Shown: positions 3,149 to 31,305 of the stretch, in pieces
How the letters are laid out: every line of letters begins with the position of its first letter
Numbering within the stretch: the stretch's first letter is position 1
Origin: Nanobdellota archaeon
GTDB taxonomy: Archaea; Nanobdellota; Nanobdellia; Pacearchaeales; GW2011-AR1
Length of the DNA: 48,887 bases
Direction: 5' to 3'
NCBI GenBank assembly: GCA_018830525.1
Contig: JAHJSH010000029.1
Coordinates: forward strand, 169,697 to 218,583
The notes under the pieces: generated by a model
What the model was told of the DNA's origin: nothing
Seen by the model: only the letters and a program-made list of their open reading frames with translations
Databases searched by the model: none
Made by a program: the position numbers and the translations under genes

Positions 3149-3637
3149 ATGGGAATATTTGCTAATGCTTTTTTTACGGAGATGCTTTTGCCGTTCTTAC
3201 TTGTGTTCGTCGTAGTTTTCGCGATTCTTCAGAAGTCTAAGATTCTTGGGGAGGGGAAGGCGCAGATTGATTCACTTGTTGCGATGGTTATCGGTCTACT
3301 TTTGATTGGTGTAAGGCAACCTCGAGAGATTATTGTGAATTTAATGCCGTGGATGGCGGTGGGTGTTGCGGTGATTTTGGTGTTCCTTATATTATATGGT
3401 CTTGTGGCTGGGGATTTGTCTAAGGCTCCCGACTGGATGAAGATTACTTTTGGAACTCTTGCAGGATTGTTTACTATTGGTGTTGTCGTATATGTTACCG
3501 GTTTTTATAATGTTATTGGAGATTGGTTTTCTGATGGGACAAGTGGAATTTGGTCTAATGTAATTATGGTTATCCTCGTGGTTGGGGCTATGGTTGTTGC
3601 AGTGGTTACTGGGAAGAAGAAGAAAAAGGACGATTGA
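3149..3637 (+). CDS. Multi-TM membrane protein, paralog 1 of 3
   Basis: LLPFLLVFVVVFAILQKSKILGEGKAQIDSLVAMVIGLL; TATA-like atatttaaata at about 3117. Confidence 0.7.
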   Translation: MGIFANAFFTEMLLPFLLVFVVVFAILQKSKILGEGKAQIDSLVAMVIGLLLIGVRQPREIIVNLMPWMAVGVAVILVFLILYGLVAGDLSKAPDWMKITFGTLAGLFTIGVVVYVTGFYNVIGDWFSDGTSGIWSNVIMVILVVGAMVVAVVTGKKKKKDD

Positions 3638-3675
3638 TAAGAAACATATATAAATGAGTTTTTTCTTAATTGACT

Positions 3676-4203
3676 ATGGGAATTACAGGGATGGTTACAA
3701 CTGTTACTGATGTGTTAAATATCTGGAACGATATTGGGGTGTTTTCTTATGTGATTCCGTTTCTTTTGATATTTGCAGTTATTTTTGCTATATTGGATAA
3801 AACCAAAATCCTAGGAGATAATAAGACTATTGAGTCTATTGTGGCTGCGGCTATTGGTTTGCTTTCTTTACAATTTGATTTTGTTTCGGAGTTCTTTGCA
3901 GTTATTTTCCCTCGGTTTGGGATTGGAATTTCAATATTTATTGTACTTCTAATTATGTTGGGTTTCTTCTATGGTGATGGTGAGTTGAAGAAAGGAAAGG
4001 TTGCTTGGATTGGTTGGACTGTGGGGATAGGAGTTGTTCTTTGGTCGCTTAGTGCTTGGGATCAATGGTCTGGAAATTCTGGCTTTGGTGGTTTCTTTGT
4101 CGAGAACATATGGTCGATTATAGTTCTGGCAGTCTTAGTTACAATAATTATTGTTACAGCTAAATCTGGGAAGAAGTCTGGTTCTTTGGGTCCGGTAAAG
4201 TAA
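3676..4203 (+). CDS. Multi-TM membrane protein, paralog 2 of 3
   Basis: SYVIPFLLIFAVIFAILDKTKILGDNKTIESIVAAAIGLL; ATG at 3676 preferred to the TTG at 3670. Confidence 0.7.
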   Translation: MGITGMVTTVTDVLNIWNDIGVFSYVIPFLLIFAVIFAILDKTKILGDNKTIESIVAAAIGLLSLQFDFVSEFFAVIFPRFGIGISIFIVLLIMLGFFYGDGELKKGKVAWIGWTVGIGVVLWSLSAWDQWSGNSGFGGFFVENIWSIIVLAVLVTIIIVTAKSGKKSGSLGPVK

Positions 4204-4683
4204 ATGGTAGCAGAAGCATCTGTTTCAGTGGTTGGATATTTTATGCCTATCTTTGCATTTTTATTAGTCTTTATTGTAATCTATGCCCTTTTGTTTAAGA
4301 CGAAAGTTCTAGGAGAAAATCAACCTGTCATGCTCTTTATCTCCTTCATCTTGTCTAGCTTTTTTATTGTTCAGGCTTCATTAGTTGAGTTTGTTAAATT
4401 TACTTCGGCTTGGTTTAGTGTAGTTATTATTGGAGTTTTCTTTTTGATTGCATTGCTCGGATTTTTGCCCGGGAAAGAGCCCCTTTCATTTTTAGGTAAG
4501 AATAATTGGTTTTCTTGGGTTCTCTTGGGATTAATTGTGGCCTTCTTTGTAATCTCTTCGGCTTATGTTTTCAATTGGGCACTTAATTGGGGGATGGTTC
4601 AGGAATGGTTTGATACTGGTTGGTTTGGAATGATTCTTCTCCTTGCTGTTGCCGCAGTTGTTTCTTGGAAGATTAAGAAGTAA
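4204..4683 (+). CDS. Multi-TM membrane protein, paralog 3 of 3
   Basis: YFMPIFAFLLVFIVIYALLFKTKVLGENQPVMLFISFIL; directly abuts paralog 2. Confidence 0.7.
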   Translation: MVAEASVSVVGYFMPIFAFLLVFIVIYALLFKTKVLGENQPVMLFISFILSSFFIVQASLVEFVKFTSAWFSVVIIGVFFLIALLGFLPGKEPLSFLGKNNWFSWVLLGLIVAFFVISSAYVFNWALNWGMVQEWFDTGWFGMILLLAVAAVVSWKIKK

Positions 4684-4694
4684 ATTTATTCATC

Positions 4695-4770
4695 AATTTC
4701 TTGGTAAAAAATTTTTTATGTGTAGAAGCACACTGCGAAATTTGTTCTCTGTGAAATTTACTGACTAAAA
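4695..4770. repeat. Intergenic long-hairpin element, copy A
   Basis: aatttcttggtaaaaaattttttatgtgtagaagcacactgcgaaatttgttctctgtgaaatttactgactaaaa aligns by eye over its whole length to 31154..31229; same central stem-loop TGTGT-AGAA-GCACA. Confidence 0.6.
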
Positions 4771-4797
4771 TAACTTTTTGTTAAGGAGGGTTTAGGA

Positions 4798-9500: not shown

Positions 9501-12415
9501 GCAATATTCCAGAGAGTAGTTTGAAATATTATTGCTGTGGTAATTCTGTCCCTGTTGAAAGAAAAGAGGTAATTGAAAGATGTTTAATTGGATTAAAGAT
9601 TAAAATGTTATTTAGTCTTGAGAAGTCGTTTGATTTAATAGATAATATTTCTATTATTAGTGAGTCTATTAATTTTGGTATGATTTTAGCTAATATGAGA
9701 AATGAACTTGGCATATCTAATGAAGAATTTGCTAAGCATGGAATTTCTGTTGGAAGCGTAACGAACTTTTTTTGTGGGCATTCTAAACCAAGCATAGAGA
9801 CTCTTAAGGCGATGGTTGGTTGTATTATGGGGGTTTATGAGTCTTGTGTTAATGATGGGAACTTTGAATTAATTAAGGAAGCAGATAAATTGGCAAGTTC
9901 AGATATTTATTGGGATGAGATTTTGAGTGTTGAGGAGATAGATAAGGTTGATGATTATGTTTATGATTTAACTGTCCCAGAGGCGCATAATTTTGTTGCA
10001 AATGGGATTGTTGCTCACAATACATCTTTGCTTGGAAGTTTGTTGTTGGAGATTATGCCGAACCATAGAGTTATTACTATCGAAGACAGTGTTACAAAAG
10101 ATGCATTGATGGTTGTAAGGCGAAATGGTCTTTATGAGAAGATAAGTATTGGAAATTTGATTGATGAACAGGTAAGTAAATATGGGTTTATTGATTTGGA
10201 TGGTAGAGAGAAGTCTTTTAATTTAGAAGGTATAGAAGTTTTTTCTTTTAATAAAGATGGTAGAATTGTCTTATCTAAGCCAAGTAAGTTTATTCGACAT
10301 AAAAATACTAAAGATATTTATGAAGTAGAGACTGCTTCTGGAAAAATTATTAATGTTACTAAAGACCATTCACTTTTTTCTTTAGATGTGGATAATTTAA
10401 TTAAACCCATAAAGCCCATTAATTTAAGGGAAGATAATTTTATTGCTATTCCTAGAAAACTTAATTTTGGCAATAAGAGAGACTTTATAGACATCTTGCC
10501 ATTTTTGGGAGATATTGAAAAAAAGATTTATGTTTTGGGGGCTCCGATTAATAATTATTTTGATGGGAAAAGAAAAGAGTTGTTCGATTTTTGTTCTAAA
10601 TTAAATTATAAAAAAGCGACTATTCAGTCTTGGACTAGAAATAAAGTTTTGCCTTATGAGGTATATAATAAATTAAGGGAACAGATTGGCGAAGGAGATT
10701 TTTTTATTAAAAGTTTTTCTTCATCTAAAATTATTCCGACTAAGATAATGTTAGATGAGGATTTTTTAAACTTTTTAGGTTTATGGCTTGCAGATGGTTG
10801 TTATGGTAAGAATTCTGTTTTGATTTCTGTTCAGGAAGAGGAGAATCGTGAAGTGGTTTGTAGAGTTGCTAAGAAATTGGGCATGAATGTTAAGGTTCAT
10901 AGTGACGAGTTTACTTTTATGTTGAATTCGGGGTTATTTCGAGAGGTGATGGAAAGAGTATTGCTTTTTTCAGGAAATTCTTATACCAAGAAAATTCCTA
11001 ATTGGATTTATGGGCTTTCAAATAAACAGGTTGGGTGGATGTTAAGAGGATTTTATAGTGGGGATGGGTGTGCAATAGATAAAGAGATTGTTTTTTCAAG
11101 TTGCTCTAAAGATTTAATAAAAGATATTTCTACATTGCTTTTGAGGTTTGGGATTATTCTTCGATATTCTAGTGTTAAGAGAAAAGATAAGTGTACTAAT
11201 TGTCGGATTGGGGACGGCGAGATGATTAAACTTTATAAGAAGAATATTGGGTTTTTGGTCGATAAGAAAAGGGAGAGGTTGGATAAATTATGTTCTAGAA
11301 AATCAAATCATGATACTTCTGATATAATCCCCTTGAGCTTAGAGGTTAAAAATAAATTATCTAAAGAAATTGGTGGTGATTTTAATTTTTATGATTATGT
11401 TACTCGGAATAATAATTTGGGGATAAGAAAGTTAAGATCTTTTGTTGATATTTTAAAAGGGGGTGATTTGAAGGAAAAATTAACTCGTCTTGTTGGTTGT
11501 GATATTTATTGGGATAAAGTTAAGAGTGTTAGGAAGATTAACTATAAAGGTTATGTTTATGATATTTCTGTTCCAGGGGATGAAAATTTTATTTGTGAAA
11601 ATATTTTGGCACATAACACTTTAGAATTGCCAGTTTCAGCGATGAGAAAATTGGATTATGATATTTTGTCGATGAAAGTTCGTTCGGCTTTGGCTGGGGA
11701 ATCTACAGAGGTTGCGGCAGAGGAAGGAATCCGAGCTTCGCTTCGTCTTGGAGATTCGTCTTTGATTGTTGGGGAAATTCGTTCGGCAGAAGCTAAGGCT
11801 TTGTATGAAGCGATGAGGGTTGGTGCTTTAGCGAATGTTGTTGCAGGTACGATTCATGGAGGCTCTCCGTATTCGGTTTTTGATAGGGTTGTTAATGATC
11901 TTGGTGTTCCGGTTACTTCTTTTAAGGCAACAGATTTGATTGTTGTCGCGAATCCAATTAAGTCTCCTGATGGTTTGCATTCTTGGAGAAGGGTTTTGCA
12001 AATTACGGAGGTTCGAAAGCATTGGACTAAAGATCCTTTGACGGAGGGAGGTTTTGTTGATTTGATGAAGTATGATGTGGAAGAAGATATATTAAAACCT
12101 TCGGAGGATTTGATTAATGGGGATTCGGAGATTATCAAGGATATTGCGTCGAATGTTAAGGGTTGGGCAGGGAATTGGGACGCGGTTTGGGATAATATAA
12201 TTCTTCGTCAGAAGATTAAACAAGAAGTAGTTGATTTTGCAGAGAAAATGAAACAACCAGAGTTATTAGAAGCAGAATTTACTGTGAAATCGAATAATGC
12301 GTTTCATCAGATTAGCGACGAGGTTAGCGAGGAAATTGGTTTGCCGACAAGTGAAGTCGTTTTTCCTAAGTGGAAAAGATGGTTGGAGAAAGAGAGTAAA
12401 CGTGTAGGTTTATAA
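6518..12415 (+). CDS. Type II/IV secretion-family ATPase (TadA/ArlI-like) containing two inteins
   Basis: Exteins: VAGTRSSGK|TSLLGSLLLEIMPNHRVITIED|TLELPVSAMRKLDYDILSMKVRSALAGEST...GEIRSAEAKALYEAMRVG...AGTIHGGSPYSVFDRVV; 756 aa without inteins. Confidence 0.93.
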   Translation: MMFKPGAPLYSYEIIRESGENVMYINYLGANFTPSLIESPIVMARTLDNLKEDSNISRIVFVQQRNYSHDFTQVKMLIEVSNLFDFLINRERIVSPEKLSHLGKDYYVAYAFLNHILNEVLKQDPILAYRELRSAIFEQKALLGEGGDNEDYIRVLEKVEGYFEDLLLVKKLKPSFDSYSSGDRDIYSEVFRADAMPNFTFTRMVARIPDDAEIIKQYEIAEGPDKSLVTIFERPNKAKLVYHLSPPEYSLNEDHHMLLNLARQVLIEHRPSEEEFNDPERTRQVFLNVARDLLSDLAQSKNLSLNYMELGKLANILVRHTIGFGILEVLLQDENLQDIVINAPVSLSPVFVRHNEFDECVTNLIPSQEDADSWAAKFRMISGRALDEANPILDTNLELKNASARVAIIQQPLSAGGIAYALRRHRSKPWTLPLFIKNKMIDSLGAGLLSFMVDGARTMLVAGTRSSGKCVDGDTLIQLSDGGIKKIRDLVGEKKKDIEDGEIFSPKEKFGVKSLEGMKISEKEISDVWKRISPEKVIQIRTRSGKQIITTKEHPYFIYEGGIKNKRADSLEKGNLIVSPRNLKFDLDEQKINLKDNNYLVNEGGVSYVLKGGTNSQEVLFPKTVTKELAEIIGMIIGDGHLDECKLEFHNQSIELRERYIKLLKMFGVKYRIFDSHTTTVVQVTSRMLNRLLRDVFEIPFGKKSDKVVIPQIILKSNNNVLARFLRGYFDCDGYVPKDKRDLEIVSASKMMGEHLKLALLRFGITPFLKIKKINGENYYRILIRGSFVNDYAKNIGFFHPFKKNRLEQISCRDFIENSNTDVIPEGNEIIKKLRKELRVCPQDVRIVTGKDYWAYENDKYRVTRSWFRKLVYFYKNRFDNLKTMGEDIVKLKNFVNFNYTDYLENINKLRSLLGVSYSFLAGELGMSEAGIRKILKNKKISNYGVLIKTFGLFRFLKERYDAVFGLKGNGLRVDCIPELVKEGVVSYAEIGRECNIPESSLKYYCCGNSVPVERKEVIERCLIGLKIKMLFSLEKSFDLIDNISIISESINFGMILANMRNELGISNEEFAKHGISVGSVTNFFCGHSKPSIETLKAMVGCIMGVYESCVNDGNFELIKEADKLASSDIYWDEILSVEEIDKVDDYVYDLTVPEAHNFVANGIVAHNTSLLGSLLLEIMPNHRVITIEDSVTKDALMVVRRNGLYEKISIGNLIDEQVSKYGFIDLDGREKSFNLEGIEVFSFNKDGRIVLSKPSKFIRHKNTKDIYEVETASGKIINVTKDHSLFSLDVDNLIKPIKPINLREDNFIAIPRKLNFGNKRDFIDILPFLGDIEKKIYVLGAPINNYFDGKRKELFDFCSKLNYKKATIQSWTRNKVLPYEVYNKLREQIGEGDFFIKSFSSSKIIPTKIMLDEDFLNFLGLWLADGCYGKNSVLISVQEEENREVVCRVAKKLGMNVKVHSDEFTFMLNSGLFREVMERVLLFSGNSYTKKIPNWIYGLSNKQVGWMLRGFYSGDGCAIDKEIVFSSCSKDLIKDISTLLLRFGIILRYSSVKRKDKCTNCRIGDGEMIKLYKKNIGFLVDKKRERLDKLCSRKSNHDTSDIIPLSLEVKNKLSKEIGGDFNFYDYVTRNNNLGIRKLRSFVDILKGGDLKEKLTRLVGCDIYWDKVKSVRKINYKGYVYDISVPGDENFICENILAHNTLELPVSAMRKLDYDILSMKVRSALAGESTEVAAEEGIRASLRLGDSSLIVGEIRSAEAKALYEAMRVGALANVVAGTIHGGSPYSVFDRVVNDLGVPVTSFKATDLIVVANPIKSPDGLHSWRRVLQITEVRKHWTKDPLTEGGFVDLMKYDVEEDILKPSEDLINGDSEIIKDIASNVKGWAGNWDAVWDNIILRQKIKQEVVDFAEKMKQPELLEAEFTVKSNNAFHQISDEVSEEIGLPTSEVVFPKWKRWLEKESKRVGL
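7925..10021 (+). mobile_element. Intein 1 of the TadA-like ATPase (699 aa), LAGLIDADG type, Walker A insertion
   Basis: Starts CVDGDTLIQLSDG after GSGK-type P-loop; ends VYDLTVPEAHNFVANGIVAHN before T; LAGLIDADG-like IIGMIIGDGHL and FLRGYFDCDGY. Confidence 0.95.
10088..11617 (+). mobile_element. Intein 2 of the TadA-like ATPase (510 aa), LAGLIDADG type
   Basis: Starts SVTKDALMVVRRNG; ends VYDISVPGDENFICENILAHN before T; LAGLIDADG-like FLGLWLADGCY and MLRGFYSGDGC; splits ITIED|TLELP. Confidence 0.93.
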
Positions 12416-25627: not shown

Positions 25628-25816
25628 ATGGTTACAAATGATTGTCCTAATCTAAGTGATGAGTGGATTCCTTCGGATGGAATGACTACCGACTCAGGGT
25701 ATATGTGTAACAAAACTAATAGTCCTTGCAGGATTAATGATTATGAAACCTGTGATATCTATTTAGCAGGTCAAGATTCTGATGATGGGTTGGAAGGAGT
25801 TGCTAATGGCAATTAA
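25628..25816 (+). CDS. Small Cys-containing protein (62 aa)
   Basis: MVTNDCPNLSDEWIPSDGMTTDSGYMCNKTNSPCRINDYETCDIYLAGQDSDDGLEGVANGN; overlaps radA start by about 10 bp. Confidence 0.5.
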   Translation: MVTNDCPNLSDEWIPSDGMTTDSGYMCNKTNSPCRINDYETCDIYLAGQDSDDGLEGVANGN

Positions 25817-28800
25817 ATCCGATGAAGAAAAAATCAAAGAGGCTATTTCTTCGTCCCCAAGGGATGACTCTGGTGAGCCCGACGAAGAGATTGAAGAAAA
25901 AGGGATTCAGACGATTAAAAAAGCTAAAGAAGAGAAGAAGGCTCAACTGATTGATATTCCGGGTGTTGGTCCGGGTGCAGTTGCTAAGTTGGAGGCTGCA
26001 GGGATTTATGATTTGATGGGGCTTGCGGTTTTGACTCCGACACAATTGGCTGAGACTGCGGGGATGAGTGAGACTGTTGCTAGAAAAGCAATTCAAGCAT
26101 CTCGGTCGATGATGGACATGGGATTTACTGATGGTCTTGCGCATGAGGAGAAAAGGAAAGAATTATTTTTTATTACAACAGGTTCCAAGAATTTGGATAA
26201 CCTTCTGGGTGGAAAAGGGATTCAGACGAAGTCCATTACTGAGGCTTTCGGGGCTTTTGGGAGTGGAAAATGCATAAGTAAAGATACAAGTGTTTGTTAC
26301 TTTAATGATACGCGAATGCATGTTGAGAGTATTGAAGAGACATATAATAAATATAATGTCGGGCAAGAAAGCAAATTTGAAGAAGGATTTGCAGTTCCTG
26401 TTCAAACAGTTAAGGTGCTTGCGTGGGATGATGGAAAGATGTCCGTTGTTCCCGCATCTCACCTATATAAAGAAAGGGTGAAGCAACTTTATGTTTTAAG
26501 AACAAAAAGAGGAAGGGTGCTTAAAATAACGGGCAATCATCAATTATTAGGTTTTGAAGGGGGGGTTAGGTGGAAAAAAACCTCGGAACTACAAGAAGGA
26601 GATTTAATTGCTTCACCAAAAAATATAAGTATGGTCAGTGAAAGTTTGTATGATGAAGATGATGCTTATTTTTTAGGATTGTTTGCTGCTGAGGGGAGTT
26701 TTAACCCTTTTTCAATATCTAATAGTTCTAATAAAATTAGGGGGTGGGTCTGTGAATATATTAAGAATAAATTTGGATACTCGCCTATAGTACGGGAAGA
26801 TAAAAGAAGAAAGAATACTGTCTATACAATTCTTTTAAGAAACAAAACAAGAGTTATCATGGATGGACTTGATAAGTGTAATTCTTCCGATAAATTTATT
26901 CCGGAGGGAATTTTTCTTTCTTCTGAGAGTGTAATTTTGTCTTTTCTGGGGGGATATTTGGATGGTGATGGGGAAGTATCTGAATATGATATTTCTGCAA
27001 CAACTAAAAGCAAAAGATTCGCAACACAGTTAACTTATCTTCTTCTAAGGTTGGGGATTTCTTCATCTCTTAAAAGAAAGATAGTAGATAATGTTAATTA
27101 TCATATTGTTCGGATTTGTGGGGAAGACAGGGAAAAATTAAAAGAAATTAAATTTCTGATTAAGAGTTTTAATTCAAAATTAAAAAATAGTTCATTTGGA
27201 TATCCGAGACAGATTATTAAATTTTTAAGTGATTTGTATAAGGAGAGTATTGGAGGAAACAGGGGAAGTTTAAGAAAGTTATTTGGGAAGGCGAATAATA
27301 ACTCTACTGCATATAAGAATTTAACAAATTCTTCTTTTGCAAAAGTAATAAATTCAGGTACCTTGGAGGAAATTGAAAATATATTTTTTATCCAGAAAGA
27401 AAATTATCTTGGGATATTAAAAGAGCTTGAAGATGATTTTTCGCTTGAAATCTTAAGAGATATATATCCGAGACTTCCTTTTGCATTTAATTGCTTGTCT
27501 GAGGGTTTGGGCGTTAAAAAGTCAACTATGAGAAATTATTATTTGAGGAGTATTCCTAATACTAAAAAGGAGCTTTTAAGAAATTTGATAATCAATGAGT
27601 TAAGAACCAGAGTTGATACCATTTGTCTTGCGTTATCTTTAATTGGAGAGATAAAAATATTTAATTGGGATGTTGTTGAATCTAGCGAAATAGTAGATTA
27701 CAATGATTTTGTTTATGATTTTGTTGTTCCCGAGGGTCATTCTTTTATTGGAGGAAATATGCCTACAATGATGCATAATACTCAACTTGCTTTGTCCCTT
27801 GCCGTCGGTGTTCAACTTCCTGTTGAACAAGGTGGGGCAAATGGGAAGGCGGTATATATTGATACTGAAGGAACTTTTCGTCCGGAGCGAGTTAGGCAAT
27901 TCGCTGAGGGTATCGGGGCGAATCCCGATAAAGTTTTGAAGAATATCTTGGTTGCTCGAGCATTCAATAGTTTGCCGTATGATGAGAAAGTTTATTATTT
28001 GGAAAATGGGGAATATAAGAGAGGGGTTATTGGGGATGTTGTGAAGAATAGCAAGAAGGATGTGGTAGGGTTTTCTTTTGATTTGTCTACGGGGAGGATG
28101 GTGAGGGCTAAAGTTTCGAATTTGATATCTCATTATGTTCCTAAGGGGGAAGTGATATACAAAATTAAGACAAAGTATGGGAGAGAGGTTAGAGTTACTG
28201 GTTCGCATTCTTTGTTTAAGGGAGTTAGGAAATCTTCAAGGGGAAAGGCTACGGTTAAGCGAGAGAAAAATAATATGAGACCAGAATGCGTTGAGGCTAA
28301 AAAATTGAAGGTTGGTGATTATATTGCTATATCAAGATATTTACCGATGATTGATAAAGACAGAAGGGTTGTTGATTTAATTAAGGAGGTTAAGAAGTTT
28401 CCTGATAAGATTAGAAAGGAGATAGAGATTGGGAAGAAGGGTGTTTCGCTTAAGCATACTGGGAAAAGGGATAGAAGGATTTTTCCTAAGAATATTGAGG
28501 TTGATGGGGATTTGCTTTGGTTACTTGGTTTTGCTGTTGCCGAGGGAAATTCTCAATATAAAGAAAGGTTTGTTAGAATTAGACTAAGTTCGGAGACTAG
28601 GTATTTAGAGAGGGCGAGAGAGATTATTTATGAAAAGTTTGGAATAGATTCGTTTTTGTATGAGAAGAGTCATAGTTTACTTATTTCTAGCAGATTGTTT
28701 GCTTTGATATTAAAGTATGTTTTCGGGGTTGATTTAGGATTGAAGTCTCCGGATAGAGTTATTCCTGATTGGATTATGCAATTGCCTTTAAATAAGTTGA

Positions 28801-31133
28801 AGAGTTTTATTAAGGGATTTTGGGACGGGGATGGTTATCATGCAGAGAGTGTGAGGAAGAGGAGGATTATTTTTTATACTTCAAGCAGGGAGCTTGCTAA
28901 TGATTTATCTATCGCATTGCTTAGATTTAGATTGATGTCTAACATACTCGAGATTAAGTTGGATAAGAGAGCGGATTACAAGGATTATTGGAGCAAGCAT
29001 TACAGAGTTGAAGTTGCGGGAGTTAGTAAGGATGAGATTTTTAAGTTGGAAGAGGTTAGCCAGAATTTGAATGCTCCTGAGTGGAATGATTTGGTTTTTG
29101 CTCGAATTAAGGGGATTGAGAGAGAGGTTTTAAAGAAGGAAGAGGAAGTTTTTGATTTTGAGGTTGCTAGTAAGGGGGAGGATTATGAGAATTTTTTGGG
29201 TGGAATTGGGGGTATTTGTTGTCATAATAGTGACCATCAAATGTTATTATTGGATAAGGTTAGTGAGATGATTAAAGATGGTGAGCCGATTAGGTTAATG
29301 ATTATTGATTCTTTGACTGCGCACTTTAGGGCCGAGTATTCAGGACGAGGACAATTAGCAGACAGACAGCAGAGGCTAAATAGATATTTGCATAATTTGA
29401 TGAAAATTGCTGAGCAGAATAATTTGGCGGTTTATGTTACTAATCAAGTTATGAGTGATCCGGCACAAATGTTTGGTGACCCGACAAAGGCAATTGGGGG
29501 GAATATCGTCGGTCATGCATGTTTGACTGGGGAAAGTATTATCCAGTTATCCGATGGAAGTTTTAAGAATATTATGGATGTTAGTGGGGACAAGATTGTT
29601 TGCGGAAACTTTAGTGACTTGAAATTTGGGAATTCCTTTTCAGATGTGCGTTCTATTAATAATCAGGTTGATAAGGTATATAGTATTGTTACGACAAATA
29701 GGATTAAGAGTTCTGGGTTGCATCGATTTTTTTGTGTTGAGAATTTTAATGTAATCGAGAAAGAGGCGAAGGATTTAAGGGAAGGGGAGTTTATTGCTCT
29801 TGCGGGAAAATTGAATATTGAGGGAGAAGTTCAAAGATTACCAGATTTCGGTGTTAAGAGGGTTGGGAAGATTTCATTTGAGGATTCTGGGATTGTTGTG
29901 AGTAAACTGAAAGAGGCGGGGATTTCAAGAGATGAAATTTGTGATCAGATAGGAATTACAACAAGACAATTTAGAAGAGTTTTGAATCAAGAAAGTATTA
30001 CGTCTATGAATGTTATAGATAATTTGAATAGTGGACTTGGTCTTGAGTTACAATGTGTTCCGGTTATGACTTACAAGCACAAAGGATTGATGATTCCAAC
30101 TGTAATGAGTGTAGAGTTTGCGCAGATATTAGGATATTTTATGGGCGATGGAAATTTTGAAAACAGAGGCGTTAGGTTTAGGGATGCGAGAAGAGAGGTA
30201 TTAGAGGGTTATAATGAATTATTTGAAGGTGTTTTTCAGAGGAAAGGGAGTATAACAAAAGTTAAGGATAAGAATTGTTTTAGTTTGGATATTAATTCAA
30301 AAGGGATTAGGGATTTTATGGAGAATGTTTTGAGAGATGTTTATGATTATATTGGGAGGAGTTCTTGTGAAGTTGTCGGTGGGTTTGTTCGAGGTTTTGT
30401 CGATGCTGAGGGACATATTGATAAAGATAGGAATAGGATTAATATTTCTCAGAAGAATAAAGGGGTGTTGGAATATTTACAATTGTTTTTACTTAGATTT
30501 GGGATTAGGAGTTCGCTTTCTGTTGATATTGGGGCAAAGAAAATGAACTATCTTTTGATTGATGGTCGGGATGTTGAGGGATATTTAAAAATAGGGTTTA
30601 GTGCAGAGGATAAACAGGAGAGATTATTAGAATGTATTAATAGAATAAATAGTAGTTATAAAAAAGAAATGATGCCTGTTGGAAGAAAAGAGTTGTGGAA
30701 TTTAGTCAAAGATGTAGGGCTTAAGCCTTTTTTGTTGATGAAGTTTCGGGGGGTTGGTTATAAGTGGGTTAATAGGTTGGAATTAGAAAAAGTGTTTGAT
30801 GCTTTGATGAATGTTGAGATTAAGGATAGGCAGATTAAACAGAAGATTAATTTTATATTTAATTTATTAACTGGAGAGTTTAGATTTGAAAAAATTAGAA
30901 AAATTAAGATTAGGGATAATAAGGATAAAGAATTGTTTTATGATTTTTCTGTTCCAGAAGGTCAGAATTATATAGCGAATGGATATGTGGTTCATAATTC
31001 CACCTACAGAATGTACCTCCGTCGGGGAAAGAAAGATTCCCGGGTTGCTAAGTTAATTGATAGCCCTGATTTGCCGGATAACGAGACTGTATTTATGATT
31101 GAGACTAACGGATTGAGAGACATTGAGGTTTAG
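25806..31133 (+). CDS. radA: DNA repair/recombination protein RadA with three inteins
   Basis: Exteins: [24 protein letters not shown]..., [20 protein letters not shown]...[14 protein letters not shown]...[14 protein letters not shown]...[29 protein letters not shown]...[20 protein letters not shown]; 359 aa after intein removal. Confidence 0.97.
   Translation: [1775 protein letters not shown]
26271..27779 (+). mobile_element. RadA intein 1 (503 aa), Walker A insertion
   Basis: [15 protein letters not shown] ... [37 protein letters not shown]-like [11 protein letters not shown] and [11 protein letters not shown]. Confidence 0.96.
27969..29228 (+). mobile_element. RadA intein 2 (420 aa), Ser-initiated
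   Basis: [24 protein letters not shown] ... [26 protein letters not shown] and [11 protein letters not shown]. Confidence 0.95.
29520..30998 (+). mobile_element. RadA intein 3 (493 aa)
   Basis: [18 protein letters not shown] ... [37 protein letters not shown] and [11 protein letters not shown]. Confidence 0.96.
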
Positions 31134-31135
31134 AT

Positions 31136-31237
31136 ATTTTTATTTTTAACGAAAATTTCTTGATAAAATAATTTCTTATGTGCGAAAGCACACGGCGAAT
31201 TTTTTTATCCGCGAACTTTCCTGTTAAAAATAAAAAT
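31136..31237. repeat. Intergenic long-hairpin element, copy B, with 15-bp perfect terminal inverted repeats
   Basis: ATTTTTATTTTTAAC (31136-31150) / GTTAAAAATAAAAAT (31223-31237); apical TGTGC-GAAA-GCACA; core aligns to 4695..4770. Confidence 0.7.
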
Positions 31238-31305
31238 TTGGAAGTTTGTTAACGGCGTTGATTTTAGAAAAGTATTTAAATTGGTTTTTCTATGAGTTAT
31301 GGAGG

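Follow-up and report, generated by a model that had tools for sequence, protein, structure and literature searches.

Dispersed imperfect palindromes of the ERIC/NEMIS type are about 100-150 bp long, lie in transcribed intergenic DNA and are found in both orientations, without tracking particular gene ends. In REP sequences and REPINs with RAYT (Y1) transposases the ends are conserved and the hairpin varies, and RAYT genes adjoin them (PMC3116915). Some transcripts of Haloferax were found to be terminated by hairpins (PMC7237163), and in Methanococcus termination takes place at U-tracts with aCPSF1 (PMC8716108). How the 3' ends of RNAs are set in archaea, and above all in DPANN archaea, is poorly known, and an element that is present on both coding and stable RNAs gives a handle on this process. 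The hairpins of about 107 bases reported here are an undescribed family and belong to no described family found in this analysis. No Rfam family model matched at the element over the gathering score, either in the window (the whole stretch of 48,887 nucleotides that was analysed) or at the other loci, and a known Rfam RNA was rejected, since nothing was detected at the element even at a low threshold. The papers searched for hairpins of Pacearchaeota, and for dispersed hairpins at stop codons in archaea, gave no description of it.

The original prediction placed two diverged copies of one hairpin element in the window, each directly behind the stop codon of an operon. Alignment of positions 4695-4774 with 31154-31233 gave 76% identity over 80 columns, with 19 differences, one of them a 1-nt gap. 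The local alignment score (SW) of the two copies was 73, in comparison to 24-27 for the runner-up place of either copy on both strands of the window, and the end-to-end alignment claimed for the copies at 4695 and 31154 is thus real. The pattern TTATGTGNNNAAGCACACNGCGAA, with up to three mismatches, matched twice in the window, in none of 100 shuffles, and only twice in the whole 963-kb genome. The apical exchange was also as described, copy 1 having U-G where copy 2 has C-G, and the outer AATTTC/GAAATT pairing was perfect in copy 1 but had one mismatch in copy 2 (GAACTT). The proposed extent of 76 nt was too short, as the aligned stretches are the cores of elements of about 107 nt (Table 1). 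Copy 2 does follow its stop codon (31131-31133), whereas the stop codon of copy 1 lies inside the element. When folding was compared with shuffles, copy 2 reached a z of -3.5 and copy 1 a z of -1.1; because copy 1 alone folds no better than shuffles, whereas copy 2 does, copy 1 was regarded as an eroded member of the family. As to the host genes, radA of the window genome contains three inteins (1783 aa); most relatives have none, and G011 has at least one, at the first site. The three tandem paralogues upstream of copy 1 form a family of small membrane proteins without assignment, and several relatives have elements in this cluster.

Table 1. Positions of the two elements, their parts and their host genes in the window.
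Feature	Position	Strand	Remarks
Copy 1, full model length	4675-4780	+	R1 80.4 bits, E 4.9e-13; basal stem eroded; overlaps stop codon 4681-4683
Copy 1, apical part	4716-4736	+	internal-loop strands TTA 4716-4718 and CTGC 4733-4736
Copy 1, apical stem	4719-4723 / 4728-4732	+	TGTGT / GCACA; loop AGAA
Copy 1, host gene	4204-4683	+	159-aa membrane protein, last of three tandem paralogues (3149-4683)
Copy 2	31134-31240	+	R1 99.4 bits, E 5.5e-17; begins one base past radA stop codon
Copy 2, basal stem 5' arm	31136-31150	+	15 nt, 100% complementary to 31223-31237
Copy 2, basal stem 3' arm	31223-31237	+	pairs with 31136-31150
Copy 2, outer internal loop	31160-31162 / 31209-31212	+	UUG (5' strand) / CCGC (3' strand)
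Copy 2, apical part	31176-31196	+	TTA and CGGC 31193-31196
Copy 2, apical stem	31179-31183 / 31188-31192	+	TGTGC / GCACA; loop GAAA
Copy 2, host gene	25782-31133	+	radA; Rad51 domain match, Intein_splicing x3

A first search gave 16 additional matches in seven relatives. With a covariance model built from 14 copies (R1), elements were detected at E <= 0.01 in 13 of the 16 genomes of the genus, the other three having none, and 18 of 180 genomes of the family (Pacearchaeota) were positive. A second model (R2), built from 31 copies of subtype 2, identified 19 of the 180 genomes, including all 18 found by R1. Besides this genus, a few others in the family carry elements. G010, G015, G002 and G202 were rich in elements, and the sisters G005, G007 and G013 had none. 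Matches in a class-wide draw of 378 genomes were confined to members of this family, and exact-pattern scans of 84,980 species gave matches solely in Pacearchaeota-type MAGs. A virus-borne element was rejected, as the exact-pattern scan of viral contigs gave no match. The window genome (G000) carries three copies, namely copies 1 and 2 and one behind the 16S rRNA (G000:C5:13118-13220; L074), and 111 copies from all genomes were examined in detail.

The basal part of the element is a stem of 14-16 pairs, followed by a small internal loop and 6-7 pairs. Then comes the outer internal loop, with UUR on the 5' side opposite CNGC or GCNGC on the 3' side, and about 12 pairs. A second, similar internal loop (5' UUR, 3' CNGC) leads to 5 pairs and a free four-base loop. 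The apex shared by the aligned copies reads UUAUGURYnnnnRYACACnGCGAA, and the arms are altered yet complementary. The unpaired bases of the internal loops are conserved. Subtype 2 has a distinct middle, UACUUCGUUGnAAGAACnCU ... CnAACCUUnCGCCUCGUCU. In an alignment of 60 copies 94% of the cells were paired, in comparison to 35-51% in slid registers, and 35 of the 40 pairs had changed on both sides with complementarity kept. Double changes were found in 426 cells, as compared to 116 after shuffling (none of 500 shuffles reached the observed number), and the covariation score was 0.496 versus at most 0.116 in slid controls. Subtype 2 alone had double changes in 31 of 37 pairs. The claim of a real dispersed element, kept in sequence and structure 3' of genes, was therefore supported by about 110 copies with strong covariation, and the covariance-model search did not give just two weak matches genome-wide with no covariation. 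Kink-turn and bulge-helix-bulge (splicing endonuclease) motifs were rejected for the internal loops, since comparison by hand on both strands gave no fit. Four elements (L107 2106-2238, L098 1787-1930, L094 2445-2590 and the one at the 3' end of radA in G012, L133/L141) were broken at varying points by inserts of 26-39 nt, mostly a hairpin plus ACCCC...GGGGC, so that a second, small hairpin element lies within the first one.

The elements lie at gene ends and on the strand of the gene. An ORF on the same strand preceded 97 of the 111 copies, with its stop codon between -31 and +23 nt from the element start. The stop codon formed the first three bases of the element in 45 copies, ended at base 9 in 13 and at base 16 in 8, the last being a TAG within the CUUAG of the basal arm. 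Stable RNA genes preceded another 8 copies, and the predicted location 3' of operons accordingly holds for gene ends but is not restricted to mRNA operons. Three of these hosts were 16S rRNAs (in L051 and L052 the element lay 0-1 nt past the end of the Rfam 16S match, and L074 was recognised by its CACCTCC end), three were SRP RNAs (L065 by Rfam, L044 and L090 by similarity), one was a tRNA-His (L115) and one a tRNA end with a group I intron (L036). The remaining copies had a gene end solely on the opposite strand (3/111) or on neither (3/111). The order in the rRNA operon was 16S, element, tRNA-Ala, 23S. The protein hosts were for the most part housekeeping genes, and included S7, S10, EF-1A, EF-2, aIF-1A, RadA, RPA, RFC-L, DnaG, RtcB, GINS51, gyrase A, LeuRS, GAPDH and pilus-type ATPases, some of them identified from the C-terminal sequence. 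In L074 of the window genome the 16S rRNA match by Rfam and the CACCTCC 3' end lie about 960 nt apart; the stretch between them (10222-11181) holds an ORF and is probably an intron near the 16S end. In L036 (1253-1456, G011) the Rfam group I intron immediately precedes the tRNA-like 3' end.

The roughly 50 nt behind the element were rich in T and poor in C, and the base of the hairpin had no fixed U-tract. The promoter of the next gene often lies directly behind: an exact TATA-like box was present within 90 nt in 31% of the copies and in 4.6% of random windows, a contrast that overstates the excess over ordinary intergenic DNA because the random windows include coding DNA. Where inspected by eye, these boxes fitted the next gene on the top strand. 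A replication-oriented element, with one strand per contig, was rejected, as the copies go with the genes, and the ORFs of the contig are themselves unevenly divided between the strands (113 plus and 38 minus). The near-palindrome GTTATGTAACTT or a close variant was found about 8-20 nt behind many elements of G010 (L075, L077, L087, L091, L093) and was not seen behind elements of the other genomes.

Eighteen host protein families had the element in at least two genomes: rpS7 and radA in 7 each, EF-1A in 5 and 15 further families in 2-4. For radA one of the seven copies carried a 35-nt insert, and the element was absent from five genomes with a readable 3' flank. At rpS7 it was present in 6 of the 14 genus genomes, and G012 had a remnant of the 5' arm. 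The host gene of copy 1 carries it in G000 and its orthologues in G010 and G015, and in G003 and G008 a converging gene lies a few bases past the stop. With sister species lacking it at the same gene and three genus genomes lacking it altogether, the element is dispensable. Two histories were detected within it. The basal arms of orthologous copies had a mean identity of 0.72 versus 0.64 for unrelated pairs (0/300 permutations), whereas their cores were no more alike (0.63 versus 0.62; 70/300 permutations). Cores from different genes of one genome were in turn more similar (0.665 versus 0.623; 0/300 permutations), and in extreme same-genome pairs the cores were up to 98% alike and the basal arms 62%. 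The basal arms track the host gene and the cores track the genome, which indicates that the stem is inherited with its locus, while cores are exchanged between loci and homogenised within a genome.

Next we compared the two strands. The apical helix had about 13 or more G-U wobbles, all of the sense kind, and no A-C. In the helices outside it, G-U was found in 49 cells and A-C in 80, and G-U was no commoner than the other mismatches either. The tRNAs of these genomes had 78 G-U in 887 pairs, far more than the elements outside the apical helix; the program marks allowed pairs alone, which makes the A-C count of the tRNAs uninformative. The bottom strand folded better in 93 of 111 copies with RNA energies and in 103 of 111 with DNA energies. 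The orientation with the host gene, the adjoining RNA ends and the sense-type apical wobbles suggest a sense RNA. However, rare G-U and bottom-strand folding fit selection for DNA complementarity or arm-to-arm copying in replication, and covariation alone is thus no proof of RNA function. The original prediction implied a folded RNA; this is plausible but falls short of proof, since neither the wobble pairs nor the folding energies favour the sense strand.

We favour, with moderate confidence, the explanation that the family defines and guards RNA 3' ends. In this model a long rod would close the sense transcript, be it an mRNA, pre-16S rRNA, SRP RNA or pre-tRNA. Within the rod the two similar internal loops, each with UUR opposite CNGC and spaced by roughly one helical turn, would form with the apical stem a recognition site for a putative lineage-specific protein. 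The 3' end may arise in the U-rich sequence that follows immediately, either through the U-tract/aCPSF1 route usual in archaea or through cleavage; the rod itself would block 3' exonucleases and set the RNA apart from the next unit. The explanation is favoured by the placement at gene ends on the strand of the gene, the double changes in both subtypes, the sense-type wobbles of the apical helix, the T-rich sequence and TATA-like boxes behind the element, its recurrence at the same genes in different species and the likeness of orthologous basal arms. The termination by hairpins in Haloferax and by U-tracts in Methanococcus was also counted in its favour. The scarcity of G-U outside the apical helix, the folding of the bottom strand, the absence of a fixed U-tract and the dispensability speak against it, and the site between 16S and tRNA-Ala/23S would be odd for a plain terminator. 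A hairpin element acting at the DNA level, non-autonomous and mobile or driven by gene conversion and surviving mainly at gene ends, is a possible though not a probable alternative. Its complementarity would come from cruciform or single-strand DNA folding or from arm correction by template switching, and its cores would spread by ectopic conversion. This would suit the equal rarity of G-U and A-C in the basal and middle stems, as DNA symmetry predicts, as well as the better bottom-strand fold, the tracking of genome (0/300) and not locus (70/300) by the cores, and the patchy presence with near-clean empty sites and the one 5'-arm remnant at rpS7. It is harder to reconcile with the near absence of reversed copies at gene ends (3/111), the exact adjoining of stop codons and of mature rRNA, SRP and tRNA ends, the conserved unpaired bases of the internal loops, and Y1 transposases that do not track the elements.

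If the element were a terminator for transcription from both sides, both strands would have to fold and exact pairs alone would be kept. The symmetric wobble counts, the converging gene on the far side of 28 copies and the TATA boxes directly behind are in line with this; most copies, however, lie between co-directional genes, and the symmetry was unchanged when only copies lacking a converging gene were counted (G-U 40, A-C 59). Gene context thus did not support bidirectional termination as the cause of the symmetry, and we consider this explanation unlikely. We regard as very unlikely a functional small RNA from the bottom strand, transcribed toward the end of the host gene: that strand does fold better and its internal loops are purine-rich, but the TATA boxes inspected by eye suit the next top-strand gene and the apical wobbles are of the top-strand kind. 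A fixed-distance promoter for such an RNA was rejected, since TATA-like boxes stood at no single spacing. The region is AT-rich and copy 1 alone has no significant fold, as expected for chance similarity or low-complexity matches; the covariance-model search, the shuffles (0/100), the next-best scores and the covariation leave practically no room for it. A further, tentative extension of the 3'-end explanation is that mRNAs, 16S rRNA, SRP RNA and tRNAs of one archaeal lineage share a common 3'-end module. Genes would exchange its recognition core and keep their own basal stem, which would make it a modular and partly mobile end-processing system with a dedicated binding protein.

The element predicts the positions of 3' ends, the genes under a shared regulator and the existence of a lineage-specific binding protein. 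The combination of a locus-bound stem with a genome-homogenised core is an unusual case of concerted evolution in a short hairpin. It also calls for caution, as covariation can arise without proving RNA function.

In comparison to known systems, the element resembles ERIC/NEMIS-type repeats in being an imperfect palindrome of similar size and setting, and differs from them by tracking orientation and gene ends. Like REPINs, it is a short, dispersed, extragenic and lineage-specific hairpin with compensatory changes and many copies per genome; here, in contrast, it is the core that is conserved, the ends differ according to the host gene, and the orientation follows the gene. A Y1 transposase (PF01797) was found in only 6 of the 16 genomes; at least seven genomes that carry elements gave no match, and it was absent from the element-rich G015, G003, G002, G008 and G009. 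With no tracking Y1 transposase and no conserved palindromic ends, the basal arms varying with the host gene, REPIN/RAYT was rejected. The window genome itself had about ten PF01797 matches (G000:C2, C19, C35, C22, C18, C30), a larger number than in its sisters; four of them were short fragments that all scored 29.6 bits.

The attC sites of integrons, those of archaea among them (PMC9668308), are similar in having a hairpin right behind the stop codon, oriented with the gene strand and folding better on the bottom strand; the better bottom-strand fold and the position directly behind the gene agree with attC and are insufficient for membership. The hosts here are housekeeping genes and rRNA, and the core is conserved, unlike in attC. 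Both attC boxes (RYYYAAC/GTTRRRY) were present in 0 of 111 copies and RYYYAAC in the left 45 nt in none; the integron integrase TIGR02249 was over the cut-off in 0 of 16 genomes (69-87% complete), with sub-threshold recombinase matches as in control genomes. Integron attC was rejected on the absence of the R boxes and of the integrase. Archaeal hairpin and U-tract terminators (PMC7237163, PMC8716108) differ from the element, whose copies are homologous and conserve the internal loops and the apex; it also overlaps the stop codon, is found inside the rRNA operon as well and has no fixed U-tract. They share with it a hairpin at the 3' end of the gene, T-rich sequence behind it and the next promoter close by, and the element probably works like a 3'-end hairpin.
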